A stretch of DNA of 53,443 nt from Pseudomonadota bacterium. GTDB taxonomy: Bacteria > CALINM01. Below are positions 15,450-36,550 of this stretch, piece by piece (within the stretch, counting starts at the first letter, position 1; each line of letters begins with the position of its first letter). The notes below the pieces were generated by a model. The model was given only the letters and a program-made list of their open reading frames with translations, did no database searches and was not told where the DNA came from. Location of the stretch: contig JAOAGA010000003.1 of assembly GCA_026415985.1 (NCBI GenBank), positions 1-53,443 of the forward strand, written 5' to 3'. A program made the position numbers and the translations under genes.

Positions 15450-17159
15450 TCATTGTTTTACTGGAAGGGTGATTATAAACTTGGTTTTTTTTCCGGGACT
15501 GCTTTCCAATTCAATAAAGCCGTTATGGAGCTCTATAATATTTTTTACTATTGCAAGTCCAAGTCCCGTGCCTCCCAACTGTCTTGAACGGGATTTATCA
15601 ACGATAAAAAACCTTTCAAATATTCTGTCTTGGAAGTTTTTTGGAATTCCGATACCTGTATCTTCTATTGTAAATATAATATTTTTTTCTTCTTTTTTTA
15701 CCGATATGTAAATTTTTCCACTCACGGGGGTAAACTTGATTGCGTTAGAAATAAGATTTATCAGTGCCTGAAATATTAAAAAGCTGTCACCAAAGTATGT
15801 AACATCTTCTCCAATATCTAATTTGATCTCAAGCTGTTTTTCCGAGATATCATTCGTAAACATCTCCAGGGCGTTCACAATAATCTCCTTGAAACTGAAA
15901 AACTCTCTTTCTATGGAGATTCTTGAATCTAATCTTGATAATAGCAAGACATCACTTACGAGGGCAGAGAGTCTGTCTATATGTTTTTTCAGTATGTTTA
16001 CAATTCTCTTTTTATTTTCGTCAATCTCCTCTTCAAGGGTATCTATATACCCCTTAAGAACAGTTATAGGGGTTTTGAGCTCATGAGATACGTTGGCGGT
16101 AAAATCTGCCTGCATTCTTTCAACCCTTTTAACCTCTGTTATATCAACAAAAGATAGCAGAAGAAACTGACTTTTCTGATGATCAATCTTATTACCAGAG
16201 ACTGAAAAAAATTTTCCTTCATATTCTATCTCAATGTTAAAATTTTCTTTTCTTTCATAAAAAGATTTGAGGGCACTGTAAAAATATTCATTTCTTAAAA
16301 TATTTGCAATTTCGTCAAGGTTTTTAAAATTCCGGAAAATTTCTCTGAAAGGTTTATTGGCTATAAAAAATAGCTTGTCTTCCTTTGCAATTACCACCGG
16401 GAAAGGGAGATTTTCTATAATATTTGATAGAAACTCCTTCTGGCTTTTTATATCCTCTGTTAGATCTCTCAATGAATCGGAAAGATATTCTATCTGCTGA
16501 GCTAAAGGATAGAGGATATTTTTTTTATCAATTTTCAGTTCCTCAATAAAATTACCTTTACTTATCTGAGATAAAGAATCCTGAATTTTATCCATGTTTT
16601 TGGCGAAATTTTTTAAGTTTTGAAAAACAAAAAACAAGATTATTAAAAAAAGAGAACTCAAAAGAAGTAAAAAGGTTTTTCTGTAAGGTTTAATAAAGTG
16701 AGATAACTCTGATATCTCGGCAGAGACTCTGAGTATGTAAATATCTTTATCATAGCTGATCTTTTTTGCATAGTATAACAATCGTGTGTTTAGTGTATTG
16801 CTGAACCGGACCACTTCAGCTTCACCTTCTTTCAGTGCCCTTTGAACCTCCTCCCTGTTTTTATGATTTTCCATGGTTTTCGGATTGTTATGAGAGTCAT
16901 AGATAACTTGCCCATCTTCTTTAATGAGGGTGATTCTATAACTGTTTATCTGGGATAGTAAGCTTAGTATCTGGAATGTTTTATCTTCATCAATCCTTTC
17001 AAGATATTTGGTTGTATTCACTGTAAAGTTTTTCAACGCCTTTTTTGATGAGTTTAGATATACCCTTTCTATGAAAAGAGAGGAAAGATATATTGAAAAA
17101 ACAACTCCCAGAAAGAAGATAAGAAAAATCTTCAGGAAATAAAGATATATGTTCTTCAT
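15450..17159 (-). CDS. phoR: Sensor histidine kinase, PhoR type
   Basis: Two N-terminal TM segments, PAS region, VSHELKTPITVLKGYIDTLEEE, GTGLGLAIVKNIIELHNG; ATGA overlap with an OmpR-family regulator gene; next to pstS. Confidence 0.8.
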   Translation of the reverse strand: MKNIYLYFLKIFLIFFLGVVFSIYLSSLFIERVYLNSSKKALKNFTVNTTKYLERIDEDKTFQILSLLSQINSYRITLIKEDGQVIYDSHNNPKTMENHKNREEVQRALKEGEAEVVRFSNTLNTRLLYYAKKISYDKDIYILRVSAEISELSHFIKPYRKTFLLLLSSLFLIILFFVFQNLKNFAKNMDKIQDSLSQISKGNFIEELKIDKKNILYPLAQQIEYLSDSLRDLTEDIKSQKEFLSNIIENLPFPVVIAKEDKLFFIANKPFREIFRNFKNLDEIANILRNEYFYSALKSFYERKENFNIEIEYEGKFFSVSGNKIDHQKSQFLLLSFVDITEVKRVERMQADFTANVSHELKTPITVLKGYIDTLEEEIDENKKRIVNILKKHIDRLSALVSDVLLLSRLDSRISIEREFFSFKEIIVNALEMFTNDISEKQLEIKLDIGEDVTYFGDSFLIFQALINLISNAIKFTPVSGKIYISVKKEEKNIIFTIEDTGIGIPKNFQDRIFERFFIVDKSRSRQLGGTGLGLAIVKNIIELHNGFIELESSPGKKTKFIITLPVKQ

Positions 17160-17836
17160 TCATTCATATCGAAGGTATAGCCTATACCCCGAACCGTTTT
17201 CAGATACTTTCCGTAAGGTCCTAACTTGTCGCGCAACCTTTTTACGTGAACATCTATTGTTCTGTCAACAACTATCTTTTCATTACCCCACAATTTCTCA
17301 AGAAGCCCCTCTCGAGTAAAAACTTTGTTCTGATTTTCGACTAAAATTTTCAATATGTAAAACTCTGTCTTTGTAGTTTCTACCTTTTTTTCATCTACGA
17401 ACAGGCAAAAGGCTTCTAAATCAAGAGTGATCCCGTTTATTTTAATTAATCTCGATAAGGTTTTTGCAGGTGTTACTCTTCTTAAAACCGCTTTAACCCG
17501 TGCGATAAGCTCCCTTACCCCGAAAGGTTTAGTAATGTAATCGTCGGCGCCTAACTCAAGCCCAAGCACCTTGTCGCCTTCCATATTCCTTGCAGTCAAG
17601 ATTATTATAGGAATGTGGGACTTTGATGGATTATTTTTTATTAGTCTCAGTATCTCTAAACCATTCATGCCGGGAAGCATCAGGTCAAGTATAAGAAGAT
17701 CAAAATTATCATTTTTATACCTCTTTAAAAAATCTTCCGGTGTGAGAAAGTATTCAACAGAAAGTCCCTCTTTTTCCAGATTATGTTTTATTAACTCTGC
17801 GATGTCCTGCTCATCTTCTAAGATAAAAATTTTCAT
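17156..17836 (-). CDS. phoB: OmpR/PhoB-family response regulator
   Basis: LLILDLMLPGMNGLEILRLIK, GADDYITKPFGVRELIARVKAVLRR, winged helix VDRTIDVHVKRLRDKLGPYGKYLKTVRGIGYTF. Confidence 0.85.
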   Translation of the reverse strand: MKIFILEDEQDIAELIKHNLEKEGLSVEYFLTPEDFLKRYKNDNFDLLILDLMLPGMNGLEILRLIKNNPSKSHIPIIILTARNMEGDKVLGLELGADDYITKPFGVRELIARVKAVLRRVTPAKTLSRLIKINGITLDLEAFCLFVDEKKVETTKTEFYILKILVENQNKVFTREGLLEKLWGNEKIVVDRTIDVHVKRLRDKLGPYGKYLKTVRGIGYTFDMNE

Positions 17837-18093
17837 AATTGTTTATTCTCTTTCTCTTTGTTTATACTGACTGATTTTTCTTTTAATTCCGATATGGTTA
17901 TGTTTTTTCTTAATATTGATGGTATAAGATAAAAAAAACCGCTCAAAACTCCTATTAAATAACAAAGAATTATTACAAGGGCGAGGGACCCTTCAAATGT
18001 CCTGTTGAAAAAACTTACCGATACAATAGCTGAGTTTTGGATAGCGAATATTGTTACAAGAATGGAAATCAAAATCAAGATTAGTAACTTCAT
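17833..18093 (-). CDS. LapA-domain (DUF1049-like) small membrane protein
   Basis: 86 aa, two TM helices; LVTIFAIQNSAIVSVSFFNRTFEGSLALVIILCYLIGVLSG is typical of LapA_dom. Confidence 0.75.
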   Translation of the reverse strand: MKLLILILISILVTIFAIQNSAIVSVSFFNRTFEGSLALVIILCYLIGVLSGFFYLIPSILRKNITISELKEKSVSINKEKENKQL

Positions 18094-18186
18094 ATGAAAA
18101 TTCTAACAATATGGTTTTTCTTTGTCAATCTTACTTGGTCTTTAGGAGATTAATATTTATGGAATTAATAAAAAAATAATTTTCTT

Positions 18187-18203
18187 TTAACAAAAATTTA
18201 ACA
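18187..18203. promoter_or_regulatory. Candidate Pho box: two TTAACA direct repeats with 11-bp period
   Basis: TTAACA AAAAT TTAACA in the lapA-phoBR / pstS divergent intergenic region, followed by AT-rich TTACACTTAAAC. Confidence 0.5.
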
Positions 18204-18249
18204 AATTACACTTAAACTCAAATCATACAAAAAATTTCGGAGGTTTTTT

Positions 18250-19254
18250 ATGATTAAAAGGCTTTTAATGGTTTCTGTAATTTCCTTGATGTTACTGTTA
18301 AGCATCAAAGGAGCCTATGCGGTAGAAAAGGTCATCAAGATTGATGGTTCAAGCACAGTCTATCCCATTACTGAGGCAGTGGCTGAGGAGTTTCAGAAGC
18401 TTAAAAAGGGTTCTGTTAATGTAACTGTTGGTATATCAGGAACAGGCGGTGGTTTCAAAAAGTTCTGCAGAGGTGAAACGGATATCTCAAACGCCTCAAG
18501 ACCTATTCTTAAGAAAGAAATGGATGTTTGCAAAGAGGCAGGCATTGAGTATATCGAGTTACCCATTGCCTATGACGGATTAGCGGTTATGGTAAACCCG
18601 AAAAATAACTGGGTTAAAAGTTTGACAGTAGAAGATCTGAAAAAGATGTGGGAACCATCTGCTCAGGGAACCGTTACAAAGTGGAATCAAGTAAGATCAG
18701 AATGGCCCGATGCACCTCTTAAACTATATGGTCCGGGAGTAGATTCAGGTACTTTTGATTATTTTACTGAAGCAATTGTTGGTAAGGCAAAGGCATCAAG
18801 AGGAGACTTTACCGCAAGTGAAGACGACAACGTACTTGTTCAGGGTATAGCGGGTGATAGAAACGCCCTTGGTTATTTTGGGCTTGCTTACTATGAAGAG
18901 AATAAGGATAAGCTTAAAATAGTTCCTATAGTTAACCCTAACACAAAAAAGGAAGTTCTGCCATCTATTAAAACTGTAATGGATGGTGAGTATCAACCAC
19001 TTTCAAGACCACTTTTTATATATGTAAACAAGAAATCAGCGGAAAAACCAGAGGTAAAGGAGTTTGTTGAAAACTACCTGAAAAATGCCTCCAAGCTGGT
19101 TAGACAAGTAAAGTATATCCCTCTCCCGGACAGGGCATATAAACTTGCAGAGGAGAGATTTTCCAAGAGAGTAACAGGAACTATGTTTGGTGGTTCTGCC
19201 GAAGTGGGAGTAAAAATTGAAGATTTACTTAAGAGAGAAGAGAAAGGTAAATAA
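18250..19254 (+). CDS. pstS: Phosphate ABC transporter substrate-binding protein
   Basis: Signal peptide, [64 protein letters not shown]. Confidence 0.95.
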
Positions 19255-21133: not shown

Positions 21134-21231
21134 CCTATCTTTTAAGCAGTGACTTATCTTATAATTAGTTTATCAGTTAAAGCGGGTCTTATTATATTTG
21201 TCCCTATTTGTATCTGAATTCCAAAGTTTGT

Positions 21232-21261
21232 TTGACAAAAATCTACAAAGTAAAGTAAAAT
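21232..21261 (+). promoter_or_regulatory. Candidate sigma70-type promoter TTGACA-18-TAAAAT
   Basis: TTGACA at 21232-21237 and TAAAAT at 21256-21261, just upstream of the aminotransferase gene. Confidence 0.55.
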
Positions 21262-21282
21262 GTGATAAATTTGGAGGTGGCT

Positions 21283-24935: not shown

Positions 24936-25541
24936 ATGAGACCAGTTGAGAAGTCGCTTTTTGACTACCAGAAAAGGCTTTCCGATTCAACGGAAGATTT
25001 GTTGTCTATGCTAAATTTTATCTATGACGGCTTTATTAAACACAAAAAAAACTTACTCCACGAAGCAGAGCTATTAGGCAAAAAGGTGCACGACTTTGAG
25101 AAAGATTTTACCTCAGATATTATTAAGGAAGGAAATAAGGATAGTGTCAGGCTTCTGATAACTATTGCAGGACATTTGGAAAGGATTGGGGATTGTTTTG
25201 AGAATATAATCAGGACAGTCCATACCAAGATTAAAGAGGGAACACTATTTTCTGATAAAGCAGTATCGGAGTTAAACTATCTTTTTAATACAGCCAAGGA
25301 GCTTATTAAAAATTTGAAAGATCTTATTGCCACCTTTAATACGGTTCTGATTGAACACATAGTAAATGTTGGAACAAAGGCAAACCAGATGGCCGATGAG
25401 TTTGCCACACAGCATGAGGAAAGGCTTGTTACAGGCATTTGTCATCCAAAGCACTCTTCAATGTATTTAGATATTCTTGATAATTTAAGAATGAGCATCT
25501 GGCACATAAAAGAGATAGCAAGAAGGATTGAAAGTTTTTAA
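24936..25541 (+). CDS. PhoU/DUF47-like helical protein
   Basis: About 200 aa, all-helical; EAELLGKKVHDFEKDFTSDI...AGHLERIGDCFENIIR resembles PhoU-type bundles. Confidence 0.65.
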   Translation: MRPVEKSLFDYQKRLSDSTEDLLSMLNFIYDGFIKHKKNLLHEAELLGKKVHDFEKDFTSDIIKEGNKDSVRLLITIAGHLERIGDCFENIIRTVHTKIKEGTLFSDKAVSELNYLFNTAKELIKNLKDLIATFNTVLIEHIVNVGTKANQMADEFATQHEERLVTGICHPKHSSMYLDILDNLRMSIWHIKEIARRIESF

Positions 25542-25723: not shown

Positions 25724-26857
25724 ATGGCTGAAAACAGCAGAGTAATCTATTGTTATTCCGATGAGTTTTTAAAGTATGATTATGGCGATGATCATCCCTT
25801 AAAGGTCTATCGGCTAAAACTAACTTATGAATTATCAAAATCCTATGATCTTTTTAAGAATATCACGGTTATAGAGCCAGAGTATTGTTCTGAGGAAGAC
25901 ATCTTAAAGGTCCATTCTTCTCATTATCTTTATGTTTTAAAACAGTGTAACAATGGTTTATGCCCGCCTGAAGCCTTTTTTTATAACTTAGATACCTCTG
26001 ATAATCCTGTATTTGAAGGTGTCTATGACTGGTCAACCCTTGTTTGTGGCTCGAGCCTTAAAGGGGCAAAGAGCCTTCTTTCCGGTGTTTGTGATACCTT
26101 CTTTAGTATATCAGGTGGGTTACATCATGCTATGCCGGAAAAGGCGTCGGGATTTTGCTATCTCAATGATATAGCGGTTGCTATTAAATATCTGATTGAC
26201 AATGGCAAAAAGGTTCTTTACATAGACACAGACGCACATCACGGAGATGGTGTTGAAAAAATTTTCTATGAAACTTCAAAGGTTATGACAATATCTTTCC
26301 ATGAATCGGGCAGATTTTTATTTCCCGGAACGGGTTTTGAAACAGACATAGGGGCAGGAGATGGGTTAGGGTATGCAGTTAATTTTCCTCTTTACCCCTA
26401 CACAGATGATAAAAATTTTTTGAGAGGGTTTTTTGAAATAGTTCCAACTCTTATAGAAGCATTTAAACCGGATATAATTGTTACACAACTTGGCGTTGAC
26501 TGCTTTTACAATGACCCTCTGGCTACTCTTAACTTAACAACCATATCTTTTGAAAAAATAATAAAATTTTACAAAGAATTAGGTATTCCTTGGCTGGCTT
26601 TGGGTGGTGGAGGATACAATCCCGCAAATGTGGCAAGGGCATGGACCTTGGCTCTGGCTATTATGGCCGATAAAGAAATATCTGATCCTATACCGGATAG
26701 TTTCACCGATATAGCCCTACCATATAAAGTAAAAATTAATAAACTAAGGGATACAGAAAGTATTAAAGACGAAGAATATTCAAACTTGATAGACAGAGAA
26801 ACAAGCAGGGTTATAGAAAAATTAAAAAAGCACCTGTTTCCCTATCACCATTTATAA
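25724..26857 (+). CDS. Histone deacetylase superfamily protein (AcuC-like)
   Basis: ISGGLHHAMPEKASGFCYLNDIAVAI, YIDTDAHHGDGVEKIFY, VTQLGVDCFYNDPLATLNLT, ALGGGGYNP; metal and catalytic residues present. Confidence 0.9.
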   Translation: MAENSRVIYCYSDEFLKYDYGDDHPLKVYRLKLTYELSKSYDLFKNITVIEPEYCSEEDILKVHSSHYLYVLKQCNNGLCPPEAFFYNLDTSDNPVFEGVYDWSTLVCGSSLKGAKSLLSGVCDTFFSISGGLHHAMPEKASGFCYLNDIAVAIKYLIDNGKKVLYIDTDAHHGDGVEKIFYETSKVMTISFHESGRFLFPGTGFETDIGAGDGLGYAVNFPLYPYTDDKNFLRGFFEIVPTLIEAFKPDIIVTQLGVDCFYNDPLATLNLTTISFEKIIKFYKELGIPWLALGGGGYNPANVARAWTLALAIMADKEISDPIPDSFTDIALPYKVKINKLRDTESIKDEEYSNLIDRETSRVIEKLKKHLFPYHHL

Positions 26858-26877
26858 AAGTTAGTTACTAAAAAATA

Positions 26878-27390
26878 TTACAGCATCATATCTATCATTC
26901 TTGCTAATTCCCCCCCTTCAACATAGCCGGTAATTGTCTGAATTAATCTGCCTTTTTTGTCATACAATAATGTGGTTGGAACAGCATCAATCTTATAGAT
27001 ATTGTTTAAATCCTGGGTTGTAAGATATAGTGAGTAGTTGATATTTACTTTTTCGGCAAAGGGTGTAACTGCAGAAGCGCCATTTTCATCTATTGCTATC
27101 CCAATAAACTCAACATTTTTGCTCTGATAGGTCTTGTAAAGTTCCACTAACTCGGGAACCTCTTTTCTACAAGGCGGACACCATGTGGCAAAAAAATTAA
27201 CGAGAACTACCTTGCCTTGATTGGATTTCAGTATTTCCTGAAGATCTTTTGCAGATATTGATTTAAGCTCCTTTGTGCTTTTGCTTTCAACGGTTTTCTG
27301 AGGTGTTGTTTCAGCCTTTTTTTCTTCTTCCTTTTTTGCACAGGAAAAAATGAACAAACTTACTAAAACCAAGAAAAAAAATCTCTTCAT
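26878..27390 (-). CDS. TlpA/ResA-like thioredoxin-fold lipoprotein
   Basis: Lipobox IFSC, VVLVNFFATWCPPCRKEVPELVELYKTY, IDAVPTTLLYDKKGRL. Confidence 0.9.
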   Translation of the reverse strand: MKRFFFLVLVSLFIFSCAKKEEEKKAETTPQKTVESKSTKELKSISAKDLQEILKSNQGKVVLVNFFATWCPPCRKEVPELVELYKTYQSKNVEFIGIAIDENGASAVTPFAEKVNINYSLYLTTQDLNNIYKIDAVPTTLLYDKKGRLIQTITGYVEGGELARMIDMML

Positions 27391-28272
27391 TTATATCTCC
27401 TTTTTTATCAAATCAGTCTTTTGTGCCCCGACTAATTCTATAGATATTGCTCCAAATTTGCAAGAGTCTGTATAGCATTTAAAGCATCTTATGCAGTTTA
27501 GCTGATTGGCACCATCGGGGAATTTTAAATGCATGGGGCAATCACGGTAGCATTGATAGCATCTTACACATTTATCTTTATTGTGGCTCATCCTGAGAAT
27601 ACTAACCTTGTTAAAAAGTGAGTAAAAACCACCTAAAGGACAGATGGTTCTGCAAAAGGGCCTTCTTATAAAAACCATCGAGACAAGCAAAAAAATTAAG
27701 ATAATCAGCTTATTGTAAAATAAAACTCCTATGAGCCTCTGAAGAGAGTTATCAAGAAACATAAGAGGTATTCCCGCTGTAAGAGTTCCCGCTGGACAGA
27801 CATATTTACAAAACCAGGTAATACCGTAACCAAACTCATCAACTATAAGTAATGGCAGGATAATTACAAAACCAAATAAGAATATATATTTTCCATATTG
27901 TAACTTAGAGGGAATGTTAAATTTTTTTGATGGTATCTTATGAATAAGTTCTTGTAGAAAACCAAAAGGGCAGAGCCAGCCACAGGGAAATCTGCCCACA
28001 AGCATTCCAATGGTTCCGAGAAAACCAACTACATAAAAGCCAAAATGATATTTCATGGAGCTTATAGAAACCCTTATGTTACCCAAAATAACCTGTAATG
28101 CTCCCATTGGACAGGCAAGAACTGATGCGGGGCAGGAGTAACAGTTAAGTCCGGGGGCACAAAAAGCCTTTGTAGGACCCTGAAAGATTTTTTTTGTCCA
28201 GATGAAGCCAAAATAGGAGTTATTTAAAAAGGTTACGATGGTTTGTATGATCCTTCTTAGATGTTTTGTCAT
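27391..28272 (-). CDS. Polytopic 4Fe-4S binding membrane protein (NapH/CcoG-like)
   Basis: CxxxCP membrane motifs GRFPCGWLCPFGFLQE and RRPFCRTICPLGGFYSLFN, plus DKCVRCYQCYRDCP and LNCIRCFKCYTDSCKFGAI. ATG at 28272 preferred (ATGA overlap with the upstream small ORF). Confidence 0.88.
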   Translation of the reverse strand: MTKHLRRIIQTIVTFLNNSYFGFIWTKKIFQGPTKAFCAPGLNCYSCPASVLACPMGALQVILGNIRVSISSMKYHFGFYVVGFLGTIGMLVGRFPCGWLCPFGFLQELIHKIPSKKFNIPSKLQYGKYIFLFGFVIILPLLIVDEFGYGITWFCKYVCPAGTLTAGIPLMFLDNSLQRLIGVLFYNKLIILIFLLVSMVFIRRPFCRTICPLGGFYSLFNKVSILRMSHNKDKCVRCYQCYRDCPMHLKFPDGANQLNCIRCFKCYTDSCKFGAISIELVGAQKTDLIKKEI

Positions 28273-28406
28273 CCTATACCTACACAGCTTAGACAAATCC
28301 TTATCGCCTTTTCAAGAACAGCGGAAAATTCACTGAAGTTTATGCCTAATATGAAAATTACTACAAAAAATATTAATAAAAGGTAGCTTTTTCTGACTTC
28401 ATTCAT
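28269..28406 (-). CDS. 45-aa single-TM protein with C-terminal CxxC (RICLSCVGIG); resembles small CD1871A-type CxxC proteins
   Basis: Not in the ORF track. Reverse-strand translation MNEVRKSYLLLIFFVVIFILGINFSEFSAVLEKAIRICLSCVGIG*; TGA overlaps the ATG of the 4Fe-4S protein. Confidence 0.7.
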   Translation of the reverse strand: MNEVRKSYLLLIFFVVIFILGINFSEFSAVLEKAIRICLSCVGIG

Positions 28407-28459
28407 TTTTTTATTATATTACTAATATTAATTTTTTCAATTTAAAATTATTAAATTTG

Positions 28460-28477
28460 ATGAAATAGGCGTTTCAT
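28460..28477. promoter_or_regulatory. Palindromic operator candidate ATGAAA-N6-TTTCAT
   Basis: Direct reading: ATGAAA TAGGCG TTTCAT in the divergent intergenic region. Confidence 0.4.
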
Positions 28478-28485
28478 TTTTAATG

Positions 28486-28586
28486 ATTTGTTTCACAAAT
28501 ATTGTTCTGAATTTTTTCATTAAAAATCAGATATTTGAAATAAAGATTAAATCAAATGATAAAAAAAGCCTTTTTGTGAAACAAAT
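28486..28586. promoter_or_regulatory. Inverted pair of identical operator-like sequences (ATTTGTTTCACAAAT at 28486-28500; TTTGTGAAACAAAT at 28573-28586)
   Basis: The second copy is the reverse complement of the first over 14 bp, about 72 bp apart, upstream of the cytochrome operon. Confidence 0.5.
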
Positions 28587-28629
28587 TATTAAAAGAAATT
28601 AAAAATAAAAATTCAATTATTTCAGTAAT

Positions 28630-28658
28630 TTGTAAAAATTAAGTTTTGGCATTATAAT
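28630..28658 (+). promoter_or_regulatory. Candidate sigma70-type promoter TTGTAA-17-TATAAT
   Basis: TTGTAA at 28630-28635, perfect TATAAT at 28653-28658, about 45 bp upstream of the cytochrome start codon. Confidence 0.55.
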
Positions 28659-28704
28659 TGATAATGTAAATGAAAATAAAAGAAAATTAATAGGGGGTGA
28701 TTTT

Positions 28705-29037
28705 ATGAAAAAAATAGTAGTTTTTTTAGTTGTTCTATCTTTTTTTAGTGTTTCCTATGCTGTCGACGCAAAAAAAGGTGATATCAATAAGGGAAAACAG
28801 CTTTACAGAGAAGTTTGCAGGAGTTGTCACGATGGTTCTAAGGCAAAAAAGGTAACACCTATGCATAAGACTACCGCACAGTGGAAAAAATTGTTTGATA
28901 ATGATATGGCAAGGCTAAAGGAAAAGCATGAAGGCAATGATGCCTTCAACAAGATTAAGGCAGAGGATTTTGACCACATCTATAGGTTCGTACTGGATGG
29001 AGCATTAGACTCTGAGCAACCACAGACCTGTGATTAA
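28705..29037 (+). CDS. Small periplasmic c-type cytochrome (monohaem, CRSCH)
   Basis: Signal peptide; GDINKGKQLYREVCRSCHDGSKAKKVTPMHK. Confidence 0.9.
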   Translation: MKKIVVFLVVLSFFSVSYAVDAKKGDINKGKQLYREVCRSCHDGSKAKKVTPMHKTTAQWKKLFDNDMARLKEKHEGNDAFNKIKAEDFDHIYRFVLDGALDSEQPQTCD

Positions 29038-29101
29038 AAATGGTTACAGGTGTAAGTTTTGGTTTTGATTCAACCTTAATTAATAATTTGGAGGTATTAA
29101 G

Positions 29102-30961
29102 ATGAGAAAATGTTTTGTTTTGCTTATGTTAATGTTTTTTACTACCCTTTCAGGAAAGGTTTTTGCACAGGAACAACCAAAGGTTGAAGACTTATTGAAA
29201 CAGATTAAGCAGTTAAAGTCCGAGCTGGCAGAGATAGAAGACAGGGTATCTGCAACAGAAAGACATACCGTAACAGATAAGGTAAGTTTGGGAATTGATT
29301 TCAGAACCCAGGCTATTTCAGCCCATTACAAAGACTTAAGAGGACTACCAGAGTGGGCGAGTTCAATGATGCAGTTATGGGCCTTTAACAGGCTTGCTAT
29401 TGATGGGACAAAAATTGGCGGAAATCCTATCCCGTCCGGAAGCAGTAGTTATACATTCAATCCAACCTTTTTACAGAAATACGGAGCAACATTGCAACCT
29501 ATGTTTCCCGCAATGGTCTCTTTAGGATTCGTAAACGGCGGTGCTTTTCTCGATATGAATGGCAACAGTACCTTTGATGCTACAGCTGATCTGCCGGTAC
29601 TTGGTAATAACTCTCTTGGCAACCCTCATTTTTCAGGCACCTTTGGTGCAACTGACCTCGCTAAGTATCAGGGAATGTTTAAAAGCATAGCACCACAGAA
29701 ATATGATTCCAACAATGATATTATGTTTACTAACAGACTGAGAGTTAACCTGGATTCTAAGGTCTCAGATAATCTTTCTTTTTCTGGCAGACTTGCCATG
29801 TATAAGACCTGGGCAGATGCGTCAGGTGTAAAATTTTATAATGGCAATATGAATACAATGAATATGGATGGTAATGATGTTTCCGTTCCTACCGATGATT
29901 TACTTAAGGTAGAAAGGGCATATTTTGTTTATAAAAACAGGTGGGGTAAGGTAGACTGGCATCTGTCCTTTGGCAGAAGACCCGCAACAGATGGTCCGCC
30001 TCTGGAGCTTAAGGCAAACTCAGAGGTTGGAGGCTCTCCCCTCGCCCATATTATAAACTGGCAGTTTGATGGTGCCTCCTGGGGGTTTGAGCTTGAAGAG
30101 TTAACGGGTATTCCCGGTGCATCTTTTAAGCTTTGCTATGGTGTAGGCTTTGAGTCGGGGGTAGGCAACTCCTATTCCTTAACTTCTCAGAATAATGTAA
30201 AAGATGTTCATATGCTTGGTTTTATTGCAAAGCTATATGACAACAAGAACACAAAGGTTGCTGTAAACTACGCCCACGCCTTTGATATTACCGATGGTTT
30301 TACAGGAACAGTGATCATGCCTTTTACGATAAATGCCCTTGATATTGATGGTAATGGTGTTTTTGATGAGTACTATCTAAACCCAAACTGGGGTGGTTAT
30401 GTATCCCGTATGCAACCTACCGCAAATATTGGTTCTATGGATATGGTAAACGTTCTCTATCAGTCAAAGGTTAAAGACATTAACTATTTTGTCTCTTTGG
30501 CATTGAGCAATACAAATCCCGACGGCAGATCCATGAACCCGATGATGCAGTTTATGGGACAGGACGCATTGTTAAACGATAACGGCGAACAAAAATCAAG
30601 AACAGGCTATTCTGTCTGGGCTGGGATCAAGGCACCAGTTACAGTTACTAAAGGTCAGTTAGGGCTGGAATATAACCATGGTTCCAAATACTGGCTTAAC
30701 TTTACAGGTGCAGAAGACAATGTGGTAGGCTCTAAGATTGCAGTAAGAGGAGATGTTTACGAAGTTTATTATATTCAACCAATCACTGGTAAAAACTTCT
30801 TTTTAACTCTTGGTGCCCAGCTTTATGATTATGATTATACAAATAGCGGTAGTCCGTTGGGTGCACCTAAGAAGATATCAGATGTGAATGCATTGGATAG
30901 TCTGATGCCTGTAGCAGACAAGATCAATGTTTATTATGCATCTCTTACCTATAGGTTCTAA
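29102..30961 (+). CDS. Outer-membrane beta-barrel/porin-like protein, DUF3373-like
   Basis: Signal peptide, short coiled coil (VEDLLKQIKQLKSELAEIEDRV), NDIMFTNRLRVNLDSKVSDNLSFSGRLAMYKTWAD, and C-terminal strand VYYASLTYRF ending in Phe. Confidence 0.8.
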   Translation: MRKCFVLLMLMFFTTLSGKVFAQEQPKVEDLLKQIKQLKSELAEIEDRVSATERHTVTDKVSLGIDFRTQAISAHYKDLRGLPEWASSMMQLWAFNRLAIDGTKIGGNPIPSGSSSYTFNPTFLQKYGATLQPMFPAMVSLGFVNGGAFLDMNGNSTFDATADLPVLGNNSLGNPHFSGTFGATDLAKYQGMFKSIAPQKYDSNNDIMFTNRLRVNLDSKVSDNLSFSGRLAMYKTWADASGVKFYNGNMNTMNMDGNDVSVPTDDLLKVERAYFVYKNRWGKVDWHLSFGRRPATDGPPLELKANSEVGGSPLAHIINWQFDGASWGFELEELTGIPGASFKLCYGVGFESGVGNSYSLTSQNNVKDVHMLGFIAKLYDNKNTKVAVNYAHAFDITDGFTGTVIMPFTINALDIDGNGVFDEYYLNPNWGGYVSRMQPTANIGSMDMVNVLYQSKVKDINYFVSLALSNTNPDGRSMNPMMQFMGQDALLNDNGEQKSRTGYSVWAGIKAPVTVTKGQLGLEYNHGSKYWLNFTGAEDNVVGSKIAVRGDVYEVYYIQPITGKNFFLTLGAQLYDYDYTNSGSPLGAPKKISDVNALDSLMPVADKINVYYASLTYRF

Positions 30962-30973
30962 CTGAATAGTTAC

Positions 30974-31016
30974 AGGTTTAGGTTATGGTTGGTCAGTTTC
31001 TCCATAGCCTAAACCT
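30974..31016 (+). other. Intercistronic stem-loop between porin and octahaem cytochrome genes
   Basis: AGGTTTAGGTTATGG (30974-30988) pairs with CCATAGCCTAAACCT (31002-31016), one G-U wobble; no T-run follows. Confidence 0.6.
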
Positions 31017-31092
31017 AAACTTTAACTAAATGGTATTTAGTCTTTAAGGAACAAGCAATTTTAAATTATTTAATGTTTTTGGAGGCAATTAA

Positions 31093-32514
31093 ATGAAGAA
31101 GTATCTGATTTTTATTTTGTTGGCAATGTTTACGTTAGTAAGCATTGGCTATTCACAAAGGACCGGAGAGGGGGTGTACAAGGAAGAAGGTGAAAACCCC
31201 CATGAAGGATATGTAAAGAGTTTTGAGGGAACTAAAACCTGTCTTGAATGTCATGAAAAAGAGGCGAAGGACGTTTTTCATAGCACCCATTATCAGTGGA
31301 AGACCGACACATCAGATGTAGTTGGTGGTTCAGGAAAGAAACTTGGCAAAATTAACGTCATCAATGACTTTTGCACGGGACCATGGATTAACTGGATATT
31401 TGATATTAAAAATAAAGGTGGAAAGATAGTTACCAATGGTTGTTCTAAATGTCATGCGGGACTGGGGCTTATGCCCTCTGAGACAATGTCACAGGAACAG
31501 CTGGAAAACATCGATTGTCTTATATGTCACGCCCCCGGTTATAACAGAAAGGTTGTGAATGATAACGGAAAGCTGAGATGGGCACCTGCCGATGAAAAGG
31601 ATGTTTTGTTAGTGAGGGCACAAAATGTTCAGAAACCTAAAAAAGGTATGTGTTTGAGATGCCACGCGGGAGCGGGTGGTGGATTCAATTTTAAAAGGGG
31701 TGATATTGAAGCGGGTATGGTAAAGGCAGATAAAGACTTAGATGTTCATCTGGCAGGTGGGCTAAATTGTGTTGATTGCCACAAGAGTAAAGAACACAGG
31801 ATTTCCGGAAGAGGTGTTGACCTGGCAGGAAGGGACAACAATGAGTTCAGACCTACATGTGATACTAAGGATTGTCATGGTAATAAACCCCATAGTAAGA
31901 ATGTCCTTAACAAACATACCGCTTCTCTTGATTGCACCGTTTGTCATATCCCTGAGTTTGCTAAAAGAGAAAAAACTGATATGGAAAGAAACTGGGCACA
32001 TCTTGAGTATTTAAAAGATGCCGACAAATATGAGCCGGAGATAAAATTTCAGAAGAATGTAATTCCCGTTTATGCCTGGTGGAATGGCAGATCTTTCATA
32101 AATGACCCTGAAAAACCTATTAAAGACACCAAGACAATCTTTAAGATGGCAAAGCCGGATGGGAGTATAAAGGATACAAAATCAAAAATCTATGCCTTTA
32201 AACTTCATAAGGCAAATCTGCCCTATGACACAGAAACAAAAAGATTAATTCCTGTTGCAACCGATATTGCTTTTCTAGAAGGGAATGTAGATAAGGCAAT
32301 AAAGGAAGGTGCAAAAAGGGCCTTTGGAAAGGAACTGCAAAGGTATGATTTTGTTAAAACGGAAAGATATATGGGAATATTCCATGGAGTCTCACCAAAG
32401 GAAAAGGCTCTGAAATGTAATGATTGTCATTCGGAAAAGGGAAGAATCGATTTTAAAGCCTTAGGTTACAAGGGAGACCCGATGAAAGTTGGTGGCAGAT
32501 TTTCTAAGAAGTAG
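31093..32514 (+). CDS. Octahaem c-type cytochrome (seven CxxCH and one CX4CH)
   Basis: Signal peptide; CLECH, CSKCH, CLICH, CLRCH, CVDCH, CDTKDCH, CTVCH, CNDCH counted in the translation. Confidence 0.9.
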   Translation: MKKYLIFILLAMFTLVSIGYSQRTGEGVYKEEGENPHEGYVKSFEGTKTCLECHEKEAKDVFHSTHYQWKTDTSDVVGGSGKKLGKINVINDFCTGPWINWIFDIKNKGGKIVTNGCSKCHAGLGLMPSETMSQEQLENIDCLICHAPGYNRKVVNDNGKLRWAPADEKDVLLVRAQNVQKPKKGMCLRCHAGAGGGFNFKRGDIEAGMVKADKDLDVHLAGGLNCVDCHKSKEHRISGRGVDLAGRDNNEFRPTCDTKDCHGNKPHSKNVLNKHTASLDCTVCHIPEFAKREKTDMERNWAHLEYLKDADKYEPEIKFQKNVIPVYAWWNGRSFINDPEKPIKDTKTIFKMAKPDGSIKDTKSKIYAFKLHKANLPYDTETKRLIPVATDIAFLEGNVDKAIKEGAKRAFGKELQRYDFVKTERYMGIFHGVSPKEKALKCNDCHSEKGRIDFKALGYKGDPMKVGGRFSKK

Positions 32515-32530
32515 TTATTAGAGTTATCAT

Positions 32531-32597
32531 GTTTTGGGTGTAAGGTTTGAGTAAAGATTAATATGACCTCTGCCAAGCACCCAAAACTTTATTTTTA
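32531..32597 (+). terminator. Candidate terminator with long loop after the cytochrome operon
   Basis: GTTTTGGGTG (32531-32540) and CACCCAAAAC (32578-32587), a perfect 10-bp inverted repeat, then TTTATTTTTA. Confidence 0.5.
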
Positions 32598-32622
32598 TAC
32601 TCAGCCAATCATCCCAAGCCTT

Positions 32623-34119
32623 TTAATAAATTATCTGGTAATTATGCCAGGGAAGTTCTTTTGAGACCTCAATTAAGATATCTTTCTTGGTATTTTTCTT
32701 TATTGCGTCTATTATCTTTTTCTCTTCACCGAATAACAGGTCTCCGATTTCTCTTCCGACTCTTACGAGAATTCTCTGGGTGGTAGCTTTTGAGATAGCC
32801 TTGAGGAGCTCTCTGTAAATAGCTAAACAGATTGTCTTTTTAGATAATACAAAGCCTTTGCCTTCACAAAAGGGGCATGTTTCGCCAAGTATCTTAGAGA
32901 GACTGTTTCTCAGTCTCTTTCTTGTAAGCTCTACAAGACCCAAGTCAGACATCGGATTGAGAAAAATTTTTGTTCTGTCTCTGAGACATTCCGATTCAAG
33001 AAGTTTGAATACCTTTTCTTTATTTTTCGGATCTTTCATATCTATAAAGTCAATTATTATTATCCCGCCTATGTTTCTTAGTCTTAACTGATAGGGGATC
33101 TCTTTGGCTGCCTCCAAGTTTGTCTGCAATATGGTGGTTTCTAAGTTATCTTTACCTATAAATCTGCCGGTGTTTACGTCTATTATTGTAAGAGCCTCCG
33201 TCTCATCAATTACTATATAACCACCGGATTTCAGCCATATATATCTTTCAAGGGCCTTTGTAATTTCCAGTTCAATGCCAAACTTTTCGAAGATCGGTGT
33301 CTCATCGGTATAAAGCTCAACATTAATCTGTTCTTCAGGCCAGAACTCCTGAATATAGCTTTTAAGTCTTTCATAGATTTCTTTATTGTCTATGACAATC
33401 TTTCCGATCTCTTCAGATGGTAAGTCCCTTACGAGTCTGAATGGCAACTCTAACTCCTGATATATAATGGCGGGTGCATTATTTTTTGCCCTTTTTTCCT
33501 TTATGTGCTCCCAGAGTCTGAGAAGATAGTTCATATCTCTTTTGAGCTCTGTATCAGATTTCCCCTCAGCTGCAGTCCTTACTATATATCCGGCGGAAGG
33601 GGTTCTAAGCTCTTCTACTATAAATTTAAGCCTTTCACGTTCTTTTTCATCCTGAATTTTGTGTGAGATACCAACATGGTCAGAAAAGGGGAGTAATACA
33701 AGGTATCTGCCGGGCAGGGCGATGTTTGTAGTTACCCGTGCACCCTTTGTGCCAACAGGACATTTTTCCGTCTGAACAAGTATTTCCTGACCTTCCTTAA
33801 TGAGATCCTGAATTTTTGTGGTGATCAGATGAAAACTATCTTTTAGATACCTTTCTTCTTCTTCAGACTCAATTGCGATCTCAAAGGGATCTTCATCTGT
33901 AATTGAATAGGGCTCTAAATCCTTTACATAAAGAAAGGCAGCCTTTTCAACGCCAATATCTATAAATGCCGATTGCATACCGGGAAGAATTCTCAATACT
34001 TTTCCTTTGTATATATTACCTATGTTTTCTTTGGTATTTTCCCGCTCTATAAATATTTCAATAGGGGTTCTGTTGTCTAAAAGAACCGCCCTTGTTTCAA
34101 AGGGTGTTACATTAATCAT
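32623..34119 (-). CDS. rng: Ribonuclease G/E family
   Basis: GNIYKGKVLRILPGMQSAFIDIGVEKAAFLYV, GGYIVIDETEALTIIDVNTGRFIG, GGIIIIDFIDM, CPFCEGKG. Start at MINVTPFETRA (34119) preferred. Confidence 0.95.
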   Translation of the reverse strand: MINVTPFETRAVLLDNRTPIEIFIERENTKENIGNIYKGKVLRILPGMQSAFIDIGVEKAAFLYVKDLEPYSITDEDPFEIAIESEEEERYLKDSFHLITTKIQDLIKEGQEILVQTEKCPVGTKGARVTTNIALPGRYLVLLPFSDHVGISHKIQDEKERERLKFIVEELRTPSAGYIVRTAAEGKSDTELKRDMNYLLRLWEHIKEKRAKNNAPAIIYQELELPFRLVRDLPSEEIGKIVIDNKEIYERLKSYIQEFWPEEQINVELYTDETPIFEKFGIELEITKALERYIWLKSGGYIVIDETEALTIIDVNTGRFIGKDNLETTILQTNLEAAKEIPYQLRLRNIGGIIIIDFIDMKDPKNKEKVFKLLESECLRDRTKIFLNPMSDLGLVELTRKRLRNSLSKILGETCPFCEGKGFVLSKKTICLAIYRELLKAISKATTQRILVRVGREIGDLLFGEEKKIIDAIKKNTKKDILIEVSKELPWHNYQIIY

Positions 34120-36550
34120 CAACTCTCTTGCCAAACCAGCCAATCTCCTTTATAAATACTTTTTCTTTAATTAAATCAAAGTTTGTGACTTCTTCTCCCG
34201 CTACCTTCCGGGCATATTCAAGAGGTTTCAACCCACCTGCTGTAACTTTAAGTTTAAATCTAAAGGCGTTATCGAGCTTTTCCAAATCTGTGACAAACTC
34301 ACTTCGTAAAAAAACCTTCTCGCTATCCTTTCTTTTTACCATAATTTTATCCTCTATGTCAAAAAGATAGGGTTTTTTGCAATAGATCTGGAAGCATTCC
34401 GAAAGTACATCAAGGGATTTATCGGTTTCTGTTTCAACAATATCAATTAAGTTTATGCCATCAATAATCTTTGATTTAAGTATCTCTAAATTTTTATCAT
34501 TTATCGGACGTTCTGTTTCAATCTTTATTGCTTCGCAGTAACTTTCAATTCCCAAAGGTAGGGCCCAGCCGGTATCTATTTTTGGCTGGGGGTTAAAACC
34601 TTTTGTATAGGCCAATTTAAAGTCTGATAGTCTCAAAAGTCTGTGCCAAAGTCTCATAATATCAAGATTACCAAGAAATACGGCATCATCTACCTTAGTA
34701 TAGATAATAAGATATTTTTTTATAACCGAAGGGTTTTTATCCTCTGATTGAAGCTTAATTTCGGTTCCTGATGAGAGTATATTTTTTACTTCCTTAAAAT
34801 CACAGACACCACAGTTGTTACATATTCCTGATCTGCAATCTTCGGTTATCTCTCCCTGTTTAAATTTATCGTACTCTCTTAGTAAAAATTCCTTTGTTAT
34901 ACCCGTATCAATAAACTCCCATGGCAGGTCAGTGTTTATTGGTTTTTCCTTAAGATAATTTTCATACTCCATATCAAGAGAGTTAAAGGCATTTTGCCAT
35001 ATTGCAAAATTAAACCTTTCATCCCAGGCATCAAGAATTGATCCCTTCTTGTAGGCATTATAAATAACCTCGTTCAAGTTTGCATCTCCCCTTGATATTA
35101 TTCCTTCAAGAATGCTCATATAGGGATTGTGAAGTTTAAGAAAGATCTTTTTTTCTTTGAAAAAGAGGTCTTTCAGTATCTTTTGTTTATCCAATATCTC
35201 GTTTAACCCGTTCATTCTTTCCCATTGAAGAGGTGTATGGGGTTTGGGAACAAAGGTAGAAAAAGACAGTGTAATATTTGCCTTATGGGTTTTGACCTTA
35301 ATTAAGATATCTTTTAAAAACCTCTTTAAATCATAAATTTCGTTTATGTTTTCATCGGGTATGCCTATCATAAAATAAAGCTTGATATTAAGCCAGCCCT
35401 CTTCCAGTGCGGTTAATATATCGCTTTCTAATTTTGAAAAATCGATATTTTTGTTAATCTTTTTTTGCATTGAGAAAAAACTTTCCGGTGCTATTGTAAA
35501 TCCTGTCTTTCTTATCTCTTTTATCTTCTCGGCAATTGTGTTTTTAACACTGCCTACCCTTAGAGAAGGTAATGATATAGAGGCCTTCTTTTGGATACTT
35601 AAGTGATAGAGACAGTGAAACAGCTCAGAAAAGCAGGAATAATCAGATGTGCTTAGTGATGAAGGAGAAAACTCGTCAAAACCTGTATCTTCAATACCTT
35701 TTTTGAAATAATTATAAATTGAGTCGAGATTTCGTTCTCTGTAGGGTCTTTGAGTATATCCTGCAAAGCAAAATCTGCAACCTCTTAAACACCCCCTTGC
35801 TATCTCTATGGAAAACCTGTTGAAAGTAGTCTCTACTATGGGGACTAAGTTTGCAGAAGGTTCATATTTATTAAGGTCCTTCACTATCAACTTTTTAATT
35901 TTATCTTTCTTTGTATTATGGATTGAAGGAACGTAGATACCATCGGTTTTACTGATCTCTGACAAAAATTTCTCCCTGTTGAAACCAGCAGATAAGAGTA
36001 TTTCAGTAATTTTATCGAGAATATCTTCACCATCACCGATTACAAACAGATCAAAGAAATCTTTAAAGGGCAGGGGGTTGAAGGCTAAGGCCCCTCCTCC
36101 TATTATAAGGGGCATTTTAGCTCTTTCTCTGGCATACAAGCTTATCTGAGATAACTCAAAAAATTTAAGAATGTTTGTCAGGGTAAGCTCATAGGGTAAG
36201 GTTATACCCAGTATGTGAAAGTCAAGGGGCGCCTTCCTGTTTTCCATTGAAAGAGGTGGAATTTTTTCCTGCTCCATAATCTTTACAGCATCTTCGGCTG
36301 GGAAATAAAACCTTTCACAGAGGGAAAGAGGGTTTTTATTAATGATATTATATAAGACGCTGATTCCTAAGTTTGAGGCACCGATTTCGTATAGATCCGG
36401 AAAAAGCAACCCCCACTTAACCTTTATCTTGCTCCAGTCTTTCCTTATAAGATTAAGCTCAGCGCCTATGTATCTTGCTGGTTTCTGACATTTTTTTAAA
36501 ACCTTTTCTTTGAATATATCATAGTGATTAACCATTATCTTTTTGCTCAC
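34112..36550 (-). CDS. Fused radical SAM protein (TIGR03960-type) with C-terminal DUF2344 (TIGR03936-type) domain
   Basis: N-terminal KPARYIGAELNLIRKDW, radical SAM IEIARGCLRGCRFCFAGYTQRPYRERN; C-terminal NLDIMRLWHRLLRLSDFKLAYTKGFNPQPKIDTGWALPLGIES; precedes rng, as in many bacteria. Confidence 0.92.
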   Translation of the reverse strand: MSKKIMVNHYDIFKEKVLKKCQKPARYIGAELNLIRKDWSKIKVKWGLLFPDLYEIGASNLGISVLYNIINKNPLSLCERFYFPAEDAVKIMEQEKIPPLSMENRKAPLDFHILGITLPYELTLTNILKFFELSQISLYARERAKMPLIIGGGALAFNPLPFKDFFDLFVIGDGEDILDKITEILLSAGFNREKFLSEISKTDGIYVPSIHNTKKDKIKKLIVKDLNKYEPSANLVPIVETTFNRFSIEIARGCLRGCRFCFAGYTQRPYRERNLDSIYNYFKKGIEDTGFDEFSPSSLSTSDYSCFSELFHCLYHLSIQKKASISLPSLRVGSVKNTIAEKIKEIRKTGFTIAPESFFSMQKKINKNIDFSKLESDILTALEEGWLNIKLYFMIGIPDENINEIYDLKRFLKDILIKVKTHKANITLSFSTFVPKPHTPLQWERMNGLNEILDKQKILKDLFFKEKKIFLKLHNPYMSILEGIISRGDANLNEVIYNAYKKGSILDAWDERFNFAIWQNAFNSLDMEYENYLKEKPINTDLPWEFIDTGITKEFLLREYDKFKQGEITEDCRSGICNNCGVCDFKEVKNILSSGTEIKLQSEDKNPSVIKKYLIIYTKVDDAVFLGNLDIMRLWHRLLRLSDFKLAYTKGFNPQPKIDTGWALPLGIESYCEAIKIETERPINDKNLEILKSKIIDGINLIDIVETETDKSLDVLSECFQIYCKKPYLFDIEDKIMVKRKDSEKVFLRSEFVTDLEKLDNAFRFKLKVTAGGLKPLEYARKVAGEEVTNFDLIKEKVFIKEIGWFGKRVDD

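Follow-up and report, generated by a model that had tools for sequence, protein, structure and literature searches.

The window analysed here is a stretch of 53,443 nucleotides, contig JAOAGA010000003.1 of assembly GCA_026415985.1, from a bacterium of the GTDB lineage CALINM01. It contains a redox locus in which two gene sets are transcribed away from each other: one, called here the left arm, encodes a thioredoxin and two probable partners, while the other, the right arm, encodes a monohaem cytochrome, an outer-membrane porin of the DUF3373 family and an octahaem cytochrome of the OTR superfamily. The source is a 1.57-Mb draft genome, 84% complete, of a phylum represented by three genomes. 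The features of the locus, in the coordinates of the window and with the grounds on which each was assigned, are as follows.

26878-27390, minus strand: TlpA/ResA-type periplasmic thioredoxin with a CPPC motif, a probable lipoprotein (IFSC); family matches and motifs
27391-28296, minus strand: NapH-like polytopic 4Fe-4S (polyferredoxin) membrane protein; Fer4_5 match and sister orthologues
28269-28406, minus strand: CD1871A-family CXXC mini-protein of 45 aa; NF040920 match and orthologues in loci L016 and L017
28407-28704, no strand: divergent non-coding control region of 298 bp, 16% G+C; the gap between the arms
28478-28499, plus strand: first half of a 22-nt inverted pair, containing TTTGTTTCACAAA (half-sites TTTGT/ACAAA), a candidate operator
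28573-28594, minus strand: second half of the same 22-nt inverted pair
28705-29037, plus strand: small periplasmic monohaem cytochrome c (CRSCH); family match, one CXXCH motif, same place in other triads
29102-30961, plus strand: DUF3373 outer-membrane porin; PF11853, AlphaFold2 model, Foldseek matches to OmpF/OmpK36 and alignment
31093-32514, plus strand: octahaem c-type cytochrome, OTR superfamily, distinct subclade; TIGR04315, 1SP3 and motif count

Five of the six open reading frames (ORFs) have 110-619 codons and the sixth has 45. The left arm reads from mini-protein through polyferredoxin to TlpA (minus strand, 28406-26878), and the right arm from monohaem cytochrome through porin to octahaem cytochrome (plus strand, 28705-32514); the flanking genes, for an AcuC-like deacetylase (25724-26857) and an RNase G-like protein (32623-34143), are unrelated in function. 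The original prediction, made from the letters of the window, had described six ORFs in two divergent units around a roughly 300-bp AT-rich control region and bounded by other functions, and all of this stands: the ORFs are real and lie where it placed them, and their family assignments rest on matches far beyond chance to DUF3373, OTR, CD1871A, TlpA/ResA-like, Fer4_5 and cytochrome c families. Its placement of the locus was right, while its span and naming need correction, the final coding sequence stopping at 32514 and the mini-protein belonging to the named CD1871A family.

The right arm is conserved as a unit. Its gene order, monohaem cytochrome, DUF3373 porin, OTR, is complete in five loci of the clade to which the window's octahaem protein belongs (L022, L024, L025, L026 and L029), runs into contig ends in L020 and L027, and is absent in L021 and L023; it also occurs with classical OTRs in Desulfuromonadia (L053, L062 and L065; 11 of 20 sampled loci). 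Altogether this gene order was found in Acidobacteriota, Kiritimatiellota, Krumholzibacteriota, Gammaproteobacteria and Desulfuromonadia, and the monohaem cytochrome has a conserved C-terminal DS..P.TC motif. Among 146 Desulfuromonadia genomes, the lists used place DUF3373 in 117 and OTR above the cut-off in 69, with 40 DUF3373-OTR pairs lying within 5 kb of each other against 0.35 expected by chance, counts that come from related genomes and do not represent independent events. The porin gene is upstream and on the same strand in 39 of these 40 pairs. The neighbourhood comparison of octahaem cytochromes with DUF3373 homologues, proposed as a check on the locus, supports a genuine porin-cytochrome pairing within a redox locus.

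Where DUF3373 is not next to a classical OTR, its partners are of related or alternative kinds: of 20 such genes sampled, eight have an OTR-like cytochrome of 7 or 8 haems next to them and five a molybdopterin oxidoreductase, two of these with a rhodanese protein; six lack partners of either kind, and one could not be assigned. Two of the molybdopterin oxidoreductases, checked against NCBIfam, matched PhsA best. Loci with DUF3373 adjoining PhsA-like or other molybdopterin oxidoreductases are L110, L114, L118, L121 and L129; L121 also carries the same monohaem cytochrome, and L110 and L114 the rhodanese protein. OTR genes have another apparently conserved neighbour, mostly in Chloroflexota, where the OTR gene is followed directly by one for a protein of 870-950 aa with seven haem motifs (L040, L044, L046, L048, L052, L054, L068, L071, L073, L078 and L080).

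The octahaem protein has a signal peptide, no lipobox and eight haem motifs, one of them CX4CH. It matches TIGR04315 over positions 44-459 (E=8e-92) and PDB 1SP3, the OTR of Shewanella oneidensis (SO_4144), with E=1e-60; 1SP3 is also the sole significant Foldseek match of its predicted structure (E=2e-28). Its TIGR04315 score of 308.6 bits falls below the NCBI curated cut-off of 375, and on its sequence it is classed as a member of the OTR superfamily, not of the named TIGR04315 subfamily. In a tree of 117 sequences, built with a quick method and rooted at the midpoint, it falls in a ten-member clade (98% SH-aLRT) with a long stem, apart from the classical OTRs and from a 7-haem group.

In 1SP3, Lys153 is reported to be the haem ligand and Asn61, Cys64 and Asp150 to line the pocket (Mowat et al. 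2004). Asn91, Cys94 and Lys201 of the window protein align with Asn61, Cys64 and Lys153 and are kept throughout its clade, the lysine being aligned in 117 of 117 sequences and the cysteine present in every member of the window clade and of the 7-haem group and in 93 of the 95 others. The likeness to the Shewanella enzyme thus extends to a common fold, eight haems, a lysine haem ligand and an active-site cysteine and asparagine, and S. oneidensis has a gene for a monohaem cytochrome, SO_4142, at a distance of two locus tags from that for OTR (PMC5789149). The window clade differs in its long branch, in the adjoining DUF3373 porin, in one haem motif relaxed to CX2-4CH and in the pocket itself: Asp150 is replaced by Phe in the window protein (Pro, Phe, Leu or Gln across the clade) and His154 by Arg, and the loop after the active-site cysteine has 22-23 residues as against 9 or 14 in classical OTRs.

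Relatives give a further indication of what the cysteine does. In the Desulfuromonadia survey, at least four OTR homologues above the cut-off contain an in-frame TGA, and in all four of those listed it falls exactly at the Cys64 position in the context NN[FY]U (L169:2208, plus; L170:2979, minus; L171:2992, minus; L172:1943, plus; positions counted on the given strand). Three of the proteins are long, with extra N-terminal haem motifs, and one is an ordinary octahaem OTR. In three of the four, a related group, the UGA is followed at a distance of 13 nt by a perfect 7-bp stem (GCAACGA/UCGUUGC); a SECIS element was not supported in these cases, folding energies being no better than those of shuffles (z -0.4 to -1.1), and all retrieved loci yielded no further in-frame UGA at the OTR active site, against 102 cysteine sites. 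TIGR04315 has been listed as a GenBank-annotated selenoprotein family, the residue not being named (2026 review, PMC13188914), and the UGA probably encodes selenocysteine. This exchange of Cys for UGA in relatives argues that the active-site cysteine is catalytic.

The porin matches PF11853 with E=3e-139 and 465 bits (cut-off 26.1) and is predicted to form a beta-barrel, which places it in the DUF3373 family; its alignment contains an invariant GRRP[SA]T motif. The AlphaFold2 model (mean pLDDT 61, with barrel blocks at about 80-90) has an N-terminal helix (28-60) followed by 16 strands, and Foldseek finds its closest counterparts among the diffusion porins, OmpF first and OmpK36 among the others, with E values as low as 1.5e-11. 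It shares the full Pfam domain and the outer-membrane pore class with TCDB 1.B.62 (PMC4827864), for which 18 strands are listed. With MtrCAB and other porin-cytochrome conduits the locus shares a barrel gene adjoining a multihaem cytochrome gene, and it differs from them in the narrow barrel, in the lack of a surface cytochrome and in having a cytochrome of a catalytic family. MtrB is predicted to have 28 strands (PMC7096707), and a conduit barrel of the MtrAB/MtrC type was rejected on the structure model, 16 strands being too narrow to enclose a multihaem cytochrome. The modelled barrel has no room for such a protein inside, which favours a solute pore, an OmpF-like diffusion porin as opposed to a wide sheath of the MtrB type. 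The barrel had been proposed as a porin, and it does model as a general one, of a size too small for the sheathing role known from MtrB. No surface multihaem lipoprotein was found among the ORFs of 25724-34143.

The left arm is read as a thiol-redox unit. The CD1871A mini-protein (NF040920, 41.9 bits against a cut-off of 32) has one hydrophobic segment and a C-terminal CLSCVGIG, and its ORF overlaps the start of the gene for the NapH-like protein, which matches the Fer4_5 polyferredoxin domain; with the TlpA/ResA-like match of the third product, a mini-protein above its model cut-off, overlapping a 4Fe-4S gene and with TlpA nearby, identifies a CD1871A-4Fe-4S-TlpA set. NapH proper was considered and rejected: the protein and this quinol dehydrogenase subunit are both polytopic 4Fe-4S membrane proteins and belong to one broad family, yet the scores of the window protein, 57.7 and 52 bits, fall short of the cut-offs (213 and 234), and no napG or napA gene adjoins it. 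In Peptoclostridium acidaminophilum (EAL2_RS15620, RS14575 and RS14585) the mini-protein gene overlaps the 4Fe-4S gene start identically and TlpA is nearby; there a major facilitator superfamily gene separates TlpA and the Gram-positive host has no outer membrane, whereas in the window all three genes are contiguous. A CD1871A search across Desulfuromonadia gave no matches and was uninformative, as control genomes gave none either. The left arm probably supplies periplasmic thiols with reducing power; as we envisage it, electrons would cross the inner membrane through the NapH-like ferredoxin and the CXXC mini-protein and reach the lipid-anchored TlpA.

Comparison of genomes separates the two arms. 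Both sister genomes keep NapH-like orthologues (70-73% identical) that the mini-protein overlaps likewise, in left arms that follow an epimerase-like gene and have no cytochrome gene within the retrieved neighbourhood. One sister has OTR and DUF3373 genes together on another contig than its left arm, and the other has neither but still retains the left arm. Among 80 named OTR loci there is none with an adjoining left-arm orthologue, a single TlpA-like match (38 bits, L093) being the nearest approach, and OTR/DUF3373 genomes outside the window's family contain just distant ferredoxin relatives (partial, about 22-38% identity). Linkage of both arms is seen in the window's lineage only, in one genome of its phylum, and since the left arm stands alone in the sister genomes and in Peptoclostridium and is missing from all 80 OTR loci, the linkage is taken to be confined to that lineage. 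The locus is therefore best read as two separate, widely conserved modules sharing a promoter region. The original prediction had offered a single envelope-spanning electron route, or else a dedicated respiratory module. The first is not supported: the conserved co-occurrence of the arms that it called for was found neither in the sister genomes, nor in the 80 OTR loci, nor in other right-arm genomes, the barrel is narrow and the cluster has no surface multihaem lipoprotein; a single module was rejected on the loci of the sister genomes and relatives. The second survives for the right arm, a conserved unit of respiratory type, and does not extend to both arms.

What the arms do share is the control region. 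The halves of the 22-nt inverted pair are 95% complementary and 73 nt apart, and TTTGTTTCACAAA, a 13-bp palindrome, has two exact copies in the whole assembly, both in this region. The TTTGT-N3-ACAAA element was not present in the retrieved sister NapH and OTR loci. Promoter-like hexamers lie at 28440-28413 (minus) and 28630-28658 (plus), such matches being no commoner than chance over the region. Rex, CRP and FNR were tried as regulators of the palindrome and did not fit when their consensus sequences were compared by eye. A copy with one mismatch, TTTGTTTGACAAA, occurs at 21227-21239 of the window, 23 bp upstream of an aminotransferase ORF at 21262.

For the function of the right arm, we incline slightly towards a periplasmic respiratory reductase unit for a small acceptor, beside an independent thiol-redox arm. 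The DUF3373 pore would admit a small anionic acceptor to the periplasm, most likely a sulfur oxyanion or another tetrathionate-like S-S compound; the monohaem cytochrome would bring electrons from the quinol pool, and the other haems of the octahaem enzyme would feed them to the lysine-ligated active-site haem, beside which the C94 thiolate would attack the acceptor, which would then be reduced. The substrate, the direction of electron flow and the roles of the monohaem cytochrome and the TlpA arm are inferred. Several points weigh against this account. Confidence in the AlphaFold models is middling (mean pLDDT 61 and 66); the lost acidic residue at Asp150 and the longer loop mean that the window clade may use another substrate; the exact palindrome pair between the arms makes local co-regulation in this genome possible; and nitrite and hydroxylamine, too, are reduced by the OTR purified from Shewanella (PMC4484225).

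That in vitro activity, together with a nitrite-reducing role proposed for the otr of D. autotrophicus (PMC6896113), favours a variant in which the octahaem enzyme acts as a nitrite or hydroxylamine reductase and nitrite enters through the porin. We regard it as unlikely: PhsA-like enzymes accompanied by a rhodanese protein are among the DUF3373 neighbours sampled, nitrite ammonification would not be expected to involve a catalytic Cys or UGA next to the haem, and general porins should already pass nitrite, so that no dedicated porin is needed.

Quite unlikely, too, is that the left arm is a full transmembrane thiol-reducing relay replacing CcdA/DsbD in a cytochrome-bearing bacterium and placed, in this lineage, under one regulator with a Cys-dependent OTR-type enzyme, the arms being linked by thiol chemistry and not by an electron wire. 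The CcdA/DsbD transmembrane domain (PF02683) was not detected in the window genome, although c-type cytochromes are encoded, and was found in 10 of 14 control genomes; in an assembly 84% complete this absence is suggestive only. A literature search for a link between CcdA, NapH and TlpA returned nothing. The same absence, and a divergent layout with two exact palindromes unique in the assembly, would suit a cooperation in which the NapH-like/CD1871A pair feeds TlpA, and TlpA in turn serves to mature the octahaem apocytochrome or to hold C94 in the reduced state; to this we attach a low probability, given no conserved co-occurrence over 80 OTR loci and 20 genomes and a left arm retained in the sister genome without OTR.

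Equally improbable is a unit that detoxifies reactive sulfur, selenium or tellurium oxyanions and does not serve respiration. An ArsR-like regulator and a universal-stress-like protein, recognized by eye, adjoin the L022 triad, and the cytochrome has weak similarity to the ExtM/N/O selenite-tellurite cytochromes; no resistance genes were recognized in the cluster, however, and a dedicated cytochrome donor together with eight haems points to a high flux.

Least probable is the conduit of the original prediction, with the barrel holding or docking the octahaem cytochrome and electrons leaving the cell: the porin-multihaem pairing is conserved in taxa rich in extracellular electron transfer and MmcA of Methanosarcina, a relative of OTR, has been put forward as an electron conduit (PMC11024163), but the OmpF-like barrel, the missing surface lipoprotein, the enzyme-type active site with its Cys/UGA exchange in relatives and the pairing of DUF3373 with molybdoenzymes all speak against it. 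A barrel gene adjoining a multihaem gene is by itself no evidence for extracellular electron transfer.

Names already exist for OTR, DUF3373 and CD1871A as families and for selenoprotein OTRs. In a literature search made mostly without subscription journals we found neither DUF3373 described as paired with OTRs and with molybdoenzymes, nor a separate OTR clade with a changed pocket, nor a UGA placed at Cys64, and the literature found that mentions DUF3373 does not describe its genomic partners. The pairing across phyla, with its molybdoenzyme alternatives, offers a testable role for both families, in which the DUF3373 porin would be dedicated to the acceptor of periplasmic thiol/haem reductases, and the UGA at the active-site cysteine makes the OTR mechanism directly testable.

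Elsewhere in the window, 15450-19254 and 24936-25541 encode a PhoR/PhoB-like pair and PstS-like and PhoU-like proteins, with no pstCAB genes in between.

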